Source of the DNA: a virus
Length of the DNA stretch: 24,924 nt
Strand: one strand, 5' to 3'
IMG/VR virus record: IMGVR_UViG_3300041809_003475
Location: 1-24,924 of that record
Below the pieces are notes generated by a model, which worked only from the letters and a program-made list of their open reading frames with translations, was not told the origin of the DNA and did not search any database. The translations under genes were made by a program, and so were the position numbers. Positions 2,583 to 9,047 of this stretch are shown one piece after another (within the stretch, counting starts at the first letter, position 1; the number at the start of each line of letters is the position of its first letter).

Positions 2583-3650
2583 GTGAATCATCTCGATCTG
2601 TTCAGTGGAATCGGAGGCTTTACCCTGGCAGCACGCTGGGCGGGCATTCGGACGGTAGGCTTTAGCGAGATTGATCCTTTTGCCTCGGCAGTTCTGAAGA
2701 AGCATTGGCCAAAAATCAAAAACTATGGAGACATTCGAACCATTACAAAAACCACAATCCCTGGTGAAATCAACCTCATCACCGGCGGCTTCCCCTGCCA
2801 GCCTTTTTCCACCGCCGGAAAGCAACGAGGCCGAGACGACCCTCGTGACCTCTGGCCTGAAATGTTCAGAGTTATCAAGGAATACAGGCCCGCTTGGGTC
2901 GTTGGAGAAAACGTTGCTGGGTTCGTCACGATGGAACTCGACCGCACGCTTGCTGACTTGGAAGCTGAAGGTTACACCGCTAGGGCGTTTATTATTCCAG
3001 CTTGCGCCGTCAACGCCCCGCACCGACGAGACAGGGTCTGGATTGTTGCCCACACCGAGAGCCAGCAACCCGTCCTCGTCGGAACAGTCACCGACGCTGG
3101 AACACGTTGTACGGCTGTTGCCGACCCCGAACTGCCTGGACGGCATGGCACCCAAGACGCCGCGCGCACTTTGGAAAGAACGCCACGTGACGAGACCTGG
3201 ACGCAAGCAATTGAGCAATTTGCGCGACGTGCTCGCGAATCAGTTGCTTCCAACGCCGAGAGCGAGCAAGTTCACGCCGTACCAGAGTCCGGGGTACTCG
3301 CCCAACATAGCGACGGTCATTTCGCTTCTCCCGACGCCCACGGCGGGAGATCGCAGGAGCAACAACTGCCGCCAGCAGGGGATCAACAATGTGATCAATC
3401 TTTTGCCGACGCCCAAGGCGCAGGACTGCCGTGCGGCGATAACGGATCGTGGGAAGAGCAACTTTGGCGAGGTTATCCATTCGAGCATTGGCGCTACGCA
3501 AACTGGTTTGAGGCTGCAACCGGCCTTTGTGGAATGGGTAATGGGCTACCCCAACGGACACACAGAATTAAAGCCCTCGGAAATGCCATCGTCCCGCAAG
3601 TCGCCTACGAAATCTTAAAAATCATAAATCCACCCGAAACAAAACAATGA
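2583..3650 (+). CDS. Cytosine-5 DNA methyltransferase
   Basis: A 355-residue C5 methyltransferase that would transfer a methyl group from S-adenosylmethionine to cytosine in DNA, probably to protect phage DNA from restriction. Motif I is D-L-F-S-G-I-G-G-F (5-13), the catalytic P-C-Q is at 71-73 (Cys72), E-N-V at 109-111, R-R-D-R-V-W at 148-153, and motif X, K-A-L-G-N-A-I-V-P-Q, at 330-339. The start is a GTG. The section between motifs VIII and X (about 157-310), where the target recognition domain should lie, is polar. It contains repeated short elements such as V-A-H-T-E-S, V-A-D-P-E-L and F-A-D-A-Q-G, which arise because the same DNA codes a second protein in the +1 frame. The stop overlaps the next ATG (ATGA). 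Target sequence cannot be predicted. Confidence 0.9.
   Translation: MNHLDLFSGIGGFTLAARWAGIRTVGFSEIDPFASAVLKKHWPKIKNYGDIRTITKTTIPGEINLITGGFPCQPFSTAGKQRGRDDPRDLWPEMFRVIKEYRPAWVVGENVAGFVTMELDRTLADLEAEGYTARAFIIPACAVNAPHRRDRVWIVAHTESQQPVLVGTVTDAGTRCTAVADPELPGRHGTQDAARTLERTPRDETWTQAIEQFARRARESVASNAESEQVHAVPESGVLAQHSDGHFASPDAHGGRSQEQQLPPAGDQQCDQSFADAQGAGLPCGDNGSWEEQLWRGYPFEHWRYANWFEAATGLCGMGNGLPQRTHRIKALGNAIVPQVAYEILKIINPPETKQ
2725..3618 (+). CDS. Overlapping +1-frame protein within the methyltransferase gene
   Basis: A second open frame of 297 residues lies wholly inside the C5 methyltransferase gene, shifted +1. It does not look like a random shadow. It carries five copies of L-L-P-T-P (at 3043, 3115, 3244, 3325 and 3400), a segment F-Q-L-A-P-S-T-P-R-T-D-E-T just before the first, and a C-terminal block F-V-E-W-V-M-G-Y-P-N-G-H-T-E-L. 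From memory, phage proteins with exactly this order (W-K-x-K-x-T, QLAPSTPRTDE, repeated PTP-x-A-x-D, then N-P-x-W-V-E-W-L-M-G-x-P-x-G-W-T) are common next to or overlapping phage C5 methyltransferases; their function is unknown to me. An in-frame stop at 2695 means it begins at 2725, or is reached by a +1 frameshift from the methyltransferase. The ribosome binding site before 2725 is poor. Expression is unproven. Confidence 0.5.
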   Translation: METFEPLQKPQSLVKSTSSPAASPASLFPPPESNEAETTLVTSGLKCSELSRNTGPLGSLEKTLLGSSRWNSTARLLTWKLKVTPLGRLLFQLAPSTPRTDETGSGLLPTPRASNPSSSEQSPTLEHVVRLLPTPNCLDGMAPKTPRALWKERHVTRPGRKQLSNLRDVLANQLLPTPRASKFTPYQSPGYSPNIATVISLLPTPTAGDRRSNNCRQQGINNVINLLPTPKAQDCRAAITDRGKSNFGEVIHSSIGATQTGLRLQPAFVEWVMGYPNGHTELKPSEMPSSRKSPTKS

Positions 3651-3793: not shown

Positions 3794-4147
3794 ATGCCTG
3801 TGCGACGCTACAATCCGAATGCCGAGAGCGAGGCAATCATGTCCCGCTTTCGGAGTGCCACGCCACCGCGTGAGGACAAGCGACCACCCGCAAGCAAACG
3901 CGGGTATGGCTGGCGATGGAAGCAGGTCAGCGATGGCGAGTACGCCAAGCACCCGATATGCGCAAGATGCGGCAAACTGATCCTTTATCGTCGCGAGGCG
4001 CGCATCGACCACGCCGAACCTGTTGCCGTCAATCCTAACAGGAAACTTGACCGCTCAAACTGCCAGACGCTCTGCATCGAGTGCCACGCACGCAAGACGG
4101 TGGCCGACTATCAAAAGTACCCCGCAACCTATGGCAAGCAAACATAA
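3794..4147 (+). CDS. HNH endonuclease, phage packaging type
   Basis: A 117-residue HNH nuclease. The zinc pairs are C56-x-x-C59 and C94-x-x-C97; the beta-beta-alpha metal core has D72-H73, N89 and H98. A basic N-terminal stretch rich in arginine and a W-R-W-K segment precede it. Small HNH proteins of this size sit next to the terminase in many HK97-like phages and are needed, with the terminase, for cutting genome concatemers at packaging; that role is inferred from family knowledge and from the terminase genes 1.7 kb downstream. The start at 3794 lies three bases after the previous stop. A homing-type nuclease is less likely because the protein lacks a separate DNA-recognition domain. Confidence 0.85.
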   Translation: MPVRRYNPNAESEAIMSRFRSATPPREDKRPPASKRGYGWRWKQVSDGEYAKHPICARCGKLILYRREARIDHAEPVAVNPNRKLDRSNCQTLCIECHARKTVADYQKYPATYGKQT

Positions 4148-4406: not shown

Positions 4407-4552
4407 AGCCTATTCGCCTGTACCCTGCCTCCCGCGGGGGTAAGGGGGGTGTCATCTCCAGGAGAAAAACCCGCAAAACCGCACCCGCCTCCTCATTTCA
4501 AAAACTAACTAGTTTTCGTGAAAAAGTCGGAAACAACACTTTTTATCCATAA
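4394..4552 (+). CDS. Possible small basic protein filling the gap
   Basis: A 52-codon open frame begins at an ATG within the last codons of the previous gene (13-base overlap) and stops one base before the ATG of the ParB-methyltransferase. It thus exactly fills what would otherwise be a 147-base gap in a region where genes abut. The product is very basic: R-L-K-P-I-R-L near the start, S-R-G-G-K-G-G, and R-R-K-T-R-K-T in the middle. No hydrophobic segment is present. A short palindrome (4501-4516) lies within it. It may be a small nucleic-acid-binding protein, or non-coding spacer that happens to be open. The tight fit to both neighbours is the main evidence. Confidence 0.4.
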   Translation: MVRLKPIRLYPASRGGKGGVISRRKTRKTAPASSFQKLTSFREKVGNNTFYP

Positions 4553-4553
4553 A

Positions 4554-5855
4554 ATGCCCACACCTGCCATCTACTGCCGCTACACCGAGCTTTCCCCCAC
4601 GGACAAGCTCATAGAGAACCCCAAGAACCCGAACACCCATCCGGCGGAGCAGCTTGAAAAGCTTGCCCGCGTGATTGAACTCAATGGCTGGAGGGCGCCG
4701 ATCGTCGTCAGTAAGCGATCGGGCTTTATCACAAAGGGGCATGGGAGGCTACAGGCGGCCAAATTGAAAGGCTGGACGCAGGTACCGGTGGAGACGCAGG
4801 AGTATGCCAATGAAGCGGAAGAATACGCCGACATGATTGCCGATAACAAGATCGCGGAGTTGGCCGTGGGCGATGACGAGAAACTGAAGGAACTGGTTTT
4901 AGGCTTGAATGGCAAGATCGACTTGGGTGCCTTGGGTATGGCCGAAGGCGACCTGAGCGCATTCCTGCAGCCAGAGATTGTCGATGAAAAGGAGAACCCA
5001 AACGGCCTTGTGGAGCGTTCAAAGGCCTTGGGCGAAAAGTGGGGCGTCAAGCGCGGAGATATTTACCTCATCGGCGGGCAGCATAGGCTCATGTGCGGCG
5101 ACAGCACCTCGCAGGCGGACGTGGAGGCCCTTATGGCCGGCCAACGAGCGGAGCTACTCAATACCGACCCGCCCTACCTGGTCAACTATACCGGCAGCCG
5201 TCCGGACAACAACGTCAATTGGGAGGAAGGCAAGGATTGGGATTCCTCCGAGAACGTGGAACTTTACAAGACCTTCCTGCAGGTGGCTTACTCACACGCC
5301 ATCGTTGAGAGCGCGCCGGTTTATGTGTGGCACGCCGGCAAGGCAGGGTCGCAACTGTTGCGTGAGGCCTTTGGCGCAAATGGCATCCTGGAGCATCTGA
5401 CGATTATATGGGTCAAAAACAAGCCGGTCATCAGCTACAGCTGGTATGCCTGGCAGCATGAGCCGTGTCTGATGGGCTGGAAGAAAGGGAATAAGCCCGC
5501 GCGCAAGACAAAGTACAGCGGGCCCACGGTGTGGAAGTTTCTGCAAGACGGCGGAGACCTGAATCAGAGCGTCGACTACGATGCTCTCTCGACCGTGTGG
5601 GAGGTTGACTCTTTGGACGGCAAAGAACGCCCGGAACATCCGACCCCGAAGCCACCCCAGCTCTTTATGATACCGATGCGTCAGCACACCGAATTGGGCG
5701 CTATCTGCTACGAACCCTTTGCCGGAAGCGGCAGTCAGATTATCGCCGCGTCGATCATGCAGCGAAAGTGCTACGCGATGGAACTCTCCGAGAAATATTG
5801 CGGCGTCATCTTGGAGCGCTGCGTCAACTATGGACTGGAGGTGAAGAAAATCTAA
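4554..5855 (+). CDS. ParB-like domain fused to DNA adenine-type methyltransferase
   Basis: A 433-residue two-part protein common in tailed phages. The first ~90 residues are a ParB/sulfiredoxin-like domain (N-P-K-N-P-N-T-H-P near 22-30, then I-T-K-G-H-G-R-L-Q-A-A). The rest is an amino-methyltransferase with the catalytic D-P-P-Y at 205-208 coming before the SAM-binding F-A-G-S-G-S at 389-394. This is the beta-type order, with H-P-T-P-K-P shortly before the latter. It should methylate adenine N6 (cytosine N4 is possible) in phage DNA. The ATG at 4554 is preferred over an in-frame GTG at 4518 because it follows the small basic frame by one base. Together with the C5 enzyme it gives the phage two modification activities. 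The terminase small subunit starts immediately after the stop. Confidence 0.9.
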   Translation: MPTPAIYCRYTELSPTDKLIENPKNPNTHPAEQLEKLARVIELNGWRAPIVVSKRSGFITKGHGRLQAAKLKGWTQVPVETQEYANEAEEYADMIADNKIAELAVGDDEKLKELVLGLNGKIDLGALGMAEGDLSAFLQPEIVDEKENPNGLVERSKALGEKWGVKRGDIYLIGGQHRLMCGDSTSQADVEALMAGQRAELLNTDPPYLVNYTGSRPDNNVNWEEGKDWDSSENVELYKTFLQVAYSHAIVESAPVYVWHAGKAGSQLLREAFGANGILEHLTIIWVKNKPVISYSWYAWQHEPCLMGWKKGNKPARKTKYSGPTVWKFLQDGGDLNQSVDYDALSTVWEVDSLDGKERPEHPTPKPPQLFMIPMRQHTELGAICYEPFAGSGSQIIAASIMQRKCYAMELSEKYCGVILERCVNYGLEVKKI

Positions 5856-8057: not shown

Positions 8058-9047
8058 TTAGGAAGACTCCCTTTTTTCTTTCTTTATTTTCTTCATCTCG
8101 CGGTCAAAGTCTGAAATATAGTTTTTATCCTCCGCTTTGCGGTACTTAACGTACTCTTCCTCGGCTTTCTTAGCCGCCAATTCCGCACTCACGCTTCCCG
8201 CATTATCCAGAAGCTTACGTCCACTTACTCTTAAAAAGTCATCCAGCTTTCTTACCCAGTCTGCCATTTTCATCGGGTGCTTTTCGATAGCCTGCAGTTC
8301 AGCAAAGTCTAGATAAAGCGATACAATAAGGTTAAGCTTTTGTAGTTCATCCTCAGCCAAGTAGTTCTTGGCGATCTTGGCATCTTGGGGAGTTATGTAG
8401 TTCCCTTTAAAGCTCGTGAGGCCCATCAACGGTTTCTTGGAATCAGCCCTTTTGACGATGATCTCGGCGGCGGTATGCCCATGTACAGCAAAATGCATTT
8501 TATTCTGAACCGTCGCAAAGAACAGCTGGGTCAACTTGTCGTCTTTCAGATAGTCAATGCTGGTGGCATAGATGTCCGTGACTTTTTGATAAAAGTTCCG
8601 TTCACTGCTACGAATATCGCGGATACGCTGGAGCAGTTCTTCAAAATACCTTGAGCGTGCGCCGCCCTGCTTTAAGCGTTCATCGTCAAGCGTAAAACCT
8701 TTGACAATATACTCTTTGAGCCGCTGGGTCGCCCATATCCTGAACTGCGTGCCTTGAAGAGACTTTACGCGGTAACCCACTGAAATAATGACATCGAGAC
8801 TGTAGTAATTTGTGGGTTTTGTAGAAAATTCGGAATTTCCGAATTTTCTCATAGTCTCTGATTCTACCAACTCTTTTTCTTCGTAAATATTCTGAATATG
8901 CTCATTGATGGTCGATTTCGATTTATTAAAAAGCTCCGCCATCTGATCCTGGGTAAGCCATACGGTCTCATTTTCCAGGCGCACCTGCAGTTTAGTGCTA
9001 CCATCCGGCGTGGAGTAAAGGACAATTTGGGAGGGTTCCTTATTCAT
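8058..9047 (-). CDS. RhuM-family protein, inserted antisense in late operon
   Basis: A 329-residue protein of the virulence RhuM family, recognised by E-T-V-W-L-T-Q-D-Q-M-A-E-L-F with I-N-E-H-I-x-N-I-Y (25-57), Y-Y-S-L-D-V-I-I-S-V-G-Y-R-V (81-94), and G-T-Q-F-R-I-W-A-T-Q-R-L-K-E-Y-I (99-114). The N-terminal third is a helix-turn-helix-like module, the middle is helical, and the C-terminus is lysine-rich. The family is named after a Salmonella pathogenicity-island gene but has no proven biochemical activity and is frequent in mobile and defence-associated regions. Here it is the only leftward gene in the packaging/structural block. It looks richer in A/T than the genes around it and separates terminase from portal, which suggests a late acquisition. 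Confidence 0.88.
   Translation of the reverse strand: MNKEPSQIVLYSTPDGSTKLQVRLENETVWLTQDQMAELFNKSKSTINEHIQNIYEEKELVESETMRKFGNSEFSTKPTNYYSLDVIISVGYRVKSLQGTQFRIWATQRLKEYIVKGFTLDDERLKQGGARSRYFEELLQRIRDIRSSERNFYQKVTDIYATSIDYLKDDKLTQLFFATVQNKMHFAVHGHTAAEIIVKRADSKKPLMGLTSFKGNYITPQDAKIAKNYLAEDELQKLNLIVSLYLDFAELQAIEKHPMKMADWVRKLDDFLRVSGRKLLDNAGSVSAELAAKKAEEEYVKYRKAEDKNYISDFDREMKKIKKEKRESS

Follow-up and report, generated by a model that had tools for sequence, protein, structure and literature searches.

A phage C5 cytosine methyltransferase gene with a second conserved protein in its +1 frame, probably a frame-split two-subunit enzyme

The C5 cytosine methyltransferase gene of the virus contig studied here (IMG/VR record IMGVR_UViG_3300041809_003475, of which positions 1 to 24,924 form the window of 24,924 nucleotides) contains a long open reading frame in its +1 frame. 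Is this second frame a gene and, if so, what would its product contribute to the methyltransferase? The first-pass annotation, made from the letters of the DNA, had proposed a dual-coding locus in which the partner protein might be a specificity or an anti-restriction factor. Below, the main-frame protein is called alpha and the +1-frame protein beta (see Table 1 for coordinates). The neighbours of the locus are typical of a tailed phage and comprise an HNH endonuclease, a ParB-methyltransferase fusion, terminase, portal and tail genes. The fusion, a ParB-like domain joined to a second DNA methyltransferase (4518-5855; phrog_498, E=4.7e-104), sits shortly downstream of the C5 methyltransferase and the HNH endonuclease (3794-4147). 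Between the terminase and portal genes, in a stretch of lower GC content, an open reading frame of 329 aa lies on the opposite strand (8058-9047, -); it is without a PHROG match and is possibly a moron gene.

Table 1. Features of the methyltransferase locus (positions refer to the window).
Feature	Position	Strand	Remarks
Alpha (C5 cytosine methyltransferase frame)	2583-3650	+	355 aa, GTG start; motifs I-VIII and X
Beta (+1-frame protein; putative target-recognition and motif IX subunit)	2725-3618	+	297 aa, ATG start
Alpha motif I, DLFSGIGG	2595-2618	+	outside the overlap
Alpha motif IV, catalytic Cys, GGFPCQPFS	2784-2810	+	
Alpha motif VI, GENV	2904-2915	+	
Beta conserved hairpin LTWKLKVTPLGRLLFQLAPS	2953-3012	+	one of the two confidently predicted parts of beta
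Alpha motif VIII APHRRDRVWIVA	3015-3050	+	same bases read in beta: STPRTDETGSGLL
Beta LLPTP repeat 1	3043-3057	+	
Beta LLPTP repeat 2	3115-3129	+	
Beta LLPTP repeat 3	3244-3258	+	
Beta LLPTP repeat 4	3325-3339	+	
Beta LLPTP repeat 5	3400-3414	+	
Beta motif IX-like block LRLQPAFVEWVMGYPNGHTEL	3508-3570	+	best local profile match to monomeric C5 methyltransferases falls on their motif IX
Alpha motif X RIKALGNAIVPQ	3564-3599	+	selection back on the alpha frame here

The layout of the +1 frame is exactly as first annotated: beta begins and ends at the positions given before, and the five LLPTP repeats, the QLAPSTP block and the VEWVMGYP block (the last within the motif IX-like block) were all located in it. 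The V-A-(H/D)-(T/P)-type repeats ascribed to the methyltransferase frame are found as VAHTE, VADPE and VASNA over three of the LLPTP repeats. In the GC-rich gene of the window the length of the open frame is by itself weak evidence for a protein, given that a +1 run of at least 306 codons arises in 12 of 2000 synonymous shuffles of the methyltransferase gene (p ~0.006). Beta matches phrog_1008 (E=1.9e-33), its PHROGs family carries the label DNA methyltransferase, and its product matches 68 phage records; Pfam and NCBIfam gave no match to beta, and a search of PDB sequences with it yielded nothing useful. At every divergent locus tested (methyltransferase identity ~30-55%), none of 300 synonymous shuffles of the homologue is as similar to the window in the +1 frame as the homologue itself (z 5.3-10.3); these loci had been located via the +1 frame, an ascertainment of which the codon-position tests given below are independent. 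The frame is open and similar in loci of lower GC content as well (Paenibacillus, Lactobacillus and Bacteroides phages). On these sequence comparisons, beta is a real and strongly conserved second protein read in the +1 frame of the methyltransferase gene. A profile comparison of beta with alpha gave no relation, so that beta as a frame-shifted copy of alpha is ruled out.

Which frame is under selection differs along the gene. Substitution rates at the three codon positions of the methyltransferase frame were determined over 49 independent close homologue pairs, drawn partly from collections ascertained via beta; position 1 of this frame is the wobble position of the +1 frame. Before the overlap the rates are.083/.046/.351 (position 3 exceeding position 1 in 38 of 39 pairs), from the start of the overlap to motif VIII.104/.049/.167 (38 of 46), from motif VIII to X.224/.058/.063 (1 of 40) and from motif X onwards.075/.038/.266 (39 of 41). 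Finer bins place the switch of the selected frame at motif X. The methyltransferase frame evolves normally upstream of the overlap and at motif X, and equal substitution at the first, second and third +1 positions is rejected in sign tests by pair. Up to motif VIII we find purifying selection in both frames of the overlap, as in an overprinted pair. The codon-position rates thus indicate that the N-terminal overlap serves both frames and that the stretch from VIII to X serves beta first; judged from them, it is mainly the +1 frame that codes between these two motifs. The dual-coding locus proposed earlier is strongly supported by these rates and by the shuffles, with synonymous-site constraint on the +1 frame and, up to motif VIII, on both. 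The part of the proposal that did not stand is that of two equal partners between motifs VIII and IX, where the +1 frame dominates.

The alpha frame of this stretch is nevertheless kept open. Between motifs VIII and X, 118 nested loci together have 1 stop in the alpha frame against 482 expected after synonymous shuffling of beta, whereas in two loci where alpha ends after motif VIII (L030 and L038) stops occur at chance level (11 against 10.6 and 9 against 10.2). From VIII to X the alpha frame has the character of a linker that is kept open to connect with motif X. In two Bacteroides loci (L081 and L082) stops interrupt the alpha frame in the linker and close to motif X, and beta is open over its full length, which may represent decay or a three-piece arrangement.

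Alpha matches PF00145 with E=2.5e-47 over residues 2-176 and phrog_363 with 4.4e-80, and has motifs I, IV (PCQ), VI (ENV), VIII and X in the order of a C5 methyltransferase. Its AF2 model has a pLDDT above 90 over most of residues 1-160 and of about 94 at motif X. Over residues 163-301, the supposed target-recognition region, the pLDDT is mostly below 50 and the chain is mostly predicted to be disordered; one helix (202-222) inside the supposed linker is a point against the linker reading. Foldseek aligns alpha to M.HhaI over only ~163 columns, the catalytic part. The model of alpha thus has no folded small domain for target recognition between motifs VIII and IX, and no motif IX block is seen ahead of motif X in the alpha chain, where X directly follows VIII. 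In one relative (L006, MT835926.1, ~1453-2457) the methyltransferase is interrupted by about 1 kb just before the catalytic PCQ, with alpha and beta resuming afterwards; the end of the interrupting sequence (..GIVVHN|C) resembles an intein C-terminus.

A candidate for the missing motif is found in beta, whose C-terminal block has the consensus LxPxFVEWxMGxPxGWT. Compared with motif IX of single-chain C5 methyltransferases this block gives a short and modest match (E=0.016, or 0.087 with a larger alignment). Scanning the betas of 213 loci with a motif IX PSSM puts the best hit on the MGFP block in 171, and beta outscores alpha in 154; mean best scores are -0.1 for alpha and 3.6 for beta, against 44-54 for the training monomers. 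Beta therefore appears to carry the C5-methyltransferase motif IX that is absent from the main frame. The structure model of beta, for which the alignment was built from the retrieved loci only, is poor (pLDDT 60, pTM 0.26) and too weak to compare its fold with others, which is a point against a target-recognition assignment.

Motif X can be encoded in either frame. In three loci (L030, which is identical to L112, L038, and L289 of mycobacteriophage Arissanae) alpha stops after motif VIII; here motif X is encoded in the beta frame, downstream of motif IX. Six loci had first been counted in this class on the tree, of which L076 (which looks rearranged), L202 (without a clear motif IX block) and L203 (an alpha-like tail at the end, without evident motif IX) were dropped. 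A count of six changes of the motif X frame is set aside, since only these three loci are relied on.

The first ATG of beta lies a median of 5 codons downstream of the last +1 stop. Of 181 loci, 62% have a Shine-Dalgarno-like motif ahead of this ATG; the corresponding figures are 29% for synonymous shuffles and 10% for the other ATGs within the gene. Beta probably has a translation start of its own. The beta ATG of the window is without such a motif, a point against this reading here.

To determine how the two proteins are distributed, loci were gathered with a +1 profile from viral and genome collections and, separately, with a methyltransferase profile alone (the alignment behind the latter leans towards the beta-bearing subfamily, as it was itself built from loci found through the +1 frame). 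All 256 loci hold both proteins, 255 in relative frame +1 and one as a tandem rearrangement. Among 298 genomes of one order 14 have beta, all 14 with an overlapping alpha. A stand-alone beta was found neither among the 256 loci nor in the 14 beta-bearing genomes, and the profile search gave no homologue outside methyltransferase genes in either set; the first-pass statement that some copies apparently do not overlap a methyltransferase is not borne out. PF00145 methyltransferases from whole genomes separate cleanly into alpha-like ones with beta and ordinary single-chain ones without; one alpha-like methyltransferase without a beta match (L274) belongs to a locus cut by the contig end. In a tree of motifs I-VIII the beta-bearing methyltransferases all fall on one side of the branch from the monomers (SH-aLRT 99.9; the monomer sample is nine only), in agreement, as far as such a tree goes, with a single origin.

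Members of the family occur in Bacillota, Bacteroidota and Acidobacteriota, in Mycobacterium, Stenotrophomonas, Escherichia and Klebsiella phages and in E. coli prophages. The arrangement is widespread in phages and usually annotated as one gene. A relative of the Kagunavirus C5 methyltransferase is present in 66 of 5426 complete E. coli genomes; in both E. coli loci that were read (L294 and L295, one of them in a P2-like prophage) the nested +1 frame is visible and unannotated. Equal match scores point to apparently identical alpha/beta copies within one genome in a Roseovarius MAG chromosome (five copies, L071-L075) and in Lihuaxuella thermophila (three, L027-L029), probably repeated prophages or mobile units. 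Tandem or rearranged loci (L133, 208-1955, and L297, 1254-2941) have a complete pair followed by a second beta, L133 also a truncated alpha.

Across 474 PTP repeats, picked by their amino-acid motif, the +1 amino acids are conserved and the +1 wobble bases are free; given this choice of repeats, the informative part is the free wobble. With PTP conserved as amino acids and its wobble free, the methyltransferase frame varies there among D/N/H/Y and T/A/S/P, which accounts for its V-A-(H/D)-(T/P) repeats. Some betas (L016) have further PTP repeats past the methyltransferase stop. The repeats coincide with module boundaries. In five close phages the N-terminal part of beta is 92-96% identical in DNA, and LPTP-bounded modules are near-identical between some of them (the first of L010 and the first of L017, 92%), in one case at another position (the second of L010 and the first of L015, 95%). 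The remaining modules are mostly ~50-60% identical; the last one, of which the conserved tail is part, reaches values of up to 0.70. LPTP-bounded modules thus swap between close phages.

C5 methyltransferases of two polypeptides are known: the gene for the small polypeptide of M.EcoHK31I is nested in that of the large one in another frame, and M.EaeI is likewise a two-polypeptide enzyme. According to PMC3404938, the large subunit of M.EcoHK31I has motifs I-VIII and X and the small polypeptide motif IX, and the predicted target-recognition domain is placed in the large subunit. Our family has the same distribution, with I-VIII and X on the large chain, motif IX (by its short, modest match) on the second, and the second gene nested in another frame in nearly all loci. 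The window can be likened to M.EcoHK31I (which recognizes YGGCCR) by its reported motif split, that is by description and not by sequence; the enterobacterial members (L286, L287, L294 and L295) resemble it in having an alpha of ~300-342 aa with a nested +1 beta. There are differences: in the account of M.EcoHK31I only motif IX is on the small subunit, whereas here the region from VIII to IX is coded mainly by beta, and members of the present family, with their LPTP-bounded modules, come from many phyla. M.AquI (CYCGRG) is also split in two subunits, according to PMC3404938 with I-VIII in the large one and the distal variable region with IX-X in the small one. This distribution is shared by L030, L038 and L289, but not by the window and most relatives, in which alpha includes motif X and the beta gene lies wholly inside that of alpha; moreover, the large subunit of M.AquI keeps part of the variable region, unlike the present alpha.

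A homologue of beta has already been annotated in Paenibacillus larvae phage Shelly (SHELLY_56, KP296795, 'g55 internal gene') as a hypothetical protein inside the methyltransferase gene, but this and the other P. larvae phage 'internal gene' annotations come without any proposed function. The multispecific phage C5 methyltransferases of the SPbeta/phi3T type have modular target-recognition domains in a single polypeptide and one frame; modular target recognition would be common to both systems, with the present modules in a separate overlapping frame. ShiLan, a mobile insertion with a hidden HNH endonuclease in phage methylase genes (PMC11855218), also places a second frame inside a phage DNA methylase gene, but beta has no nuclease match and is not an insertion. 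A two-polypeptide C5 methyltransferase with motif IX on the small chain is therefore already known from the M.EcoHK31I precedent. In the open literature we found no paper on the family-wide arrangement, on target recognition in a nested frame, on module exchange or on moves of motif X; the features that look new are how broadly the family is spread, its single origin, the position of the target-recognition region in the nested frame, and the change of frame of motif X.

We estimate a probability of roughly 85% that the locus encodes a frame-split two-subunit C5 methyltransferase, in which alpha provides motifs I-VIII and X and beta target recognition and motif IX. The modest motif IX match and the assignment of the domain to the large subunit of M.EcoHK31I in PMC3404938 speak against it. 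That same assignment would favour alpha as the whole enzyme, with its own fast-evolving target-recognition domain and beta as a regulator or chaperone. We regard this as improbable, given the observation that changes in the region are mainly on alpha position 1 and approach the rate of silent sites elsewhere in the gene, that the region is mostly predicted disordered, and that L030, L038 and L289 are without it altogether. It might also be argued that programmed frameshifting yields one full-length methyltransferase, with ribosomes entering the +1 frame past motif VIII and leaving it ahead of motif X; the product would have the canonical order of I-VIII, target recognition, IX and X. This is equally improbable to us: two efficient shifts would be required, and the constraint on beta upstream of motif VIII (position 3 at 0.167 against 0.351 before the overlap), the Shine-Dalgarno enrichment ahead of its ATG and the early end of alpha in L030 and L038 would be left unexplained.

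Slightly less improbable, but still unlikely, is an overprinted beta that is independent of methylation, i.e. an anti-restriction or other accessory protein sharing the methyltransferase DNA. The N-terminal half of beta (over motifs IV-VIII) has no Pfam or PDB relative, as would suit a de novo overprinted part. Against this, beta is never found without alpha, it has a motif IX-like block where motif IX belongs and alpha has none, motif X follows that block in the beta frame of some relatives, and a new gene would not be expected to turn the target-recognition region of a methyltransferase into an unconstrained linker. Of the two roles suggested in the first-pass annotation, that of a specificity partner is strongly supported; nothing points to anti-restriction; beta has the look of a structural component of the enzyme, comprising target-recognition region and motif IX, as is known from M.EcoHK31I. 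Finally, the +1 frame could be open without coding for a protein, as a side effect of codon choice or of conserved DNA (e.g. recombination repeats) in a gene rich in GC, with which the p-value for openness of the window and the coincidence of LPTP repeats with module boundaries would agree. We give this hardly any credence, since the wobble is free and the +1 amino acids are conserved in the PTP repeats, the frame-specific rates reverse between VIII and X, and the similarity exceeds all synonymous shuffles in lower-GC loci as well.

The two-subunit reading brings together what was computed (a second coding frame, frame-specific constraint, obligate co-occurrence, module swapping, the motif IX match and AquI-like variants), and from it we infer complex formation, a target-recognition function of beta and change of specificity. 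Alpha would fold as the catalytic domain, with motifs I-VIII including the PCQ cysteine and closed by motif X. Its part between VIII and X would be no more than a disordered linker, kept open so that ribosomes can get as far as motif X. Translation of beta would begin at an internal start of its own; the protein would contribute motif IX and the target-recognition region (the modules between LPTP repeats), and the active enzyme would be the complex of the two chains. By swapping LPTP-bounded modules, phages might then change methylation specificity, with both frames staying open. A plausible history would begin with a frameshift after motif VIII that split a monomer, followed by an upstream internal start overprinting the motif IV-VIII region; a second frameshift, between IX and X, would have brought motif X back into alpha in most lineages, or the move would have gone the other way in some.

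Somewhat better than even, in our judgement, are the chances of a wider claim: that this is a large, old family of single origin, with the whole of target recognition in a nested subunit of swappable modules, methylation reprogrammed by their exchange, and motif X moved between frames more than once. If so, it would be an error to place the target-recognition domain of such enzymes in the large subunit, as has been published. A codon-optimised synthetic alpha would destroy beta, so that enzymes cloned in that way could look inactive. Motif X in either frame is an internal control that makes complementation of the two chains testable, and the modules are a possible system for cytosine methylation at chosen sites. 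The locus represents a long and widely conserved same-strand overlap in DNA phages. If the two-subunit reading is true, a single DNA cytosine methyltransferase annotation in many phages and prophages would conceal a pair of genes, with specificity set by the one that is not annotated.
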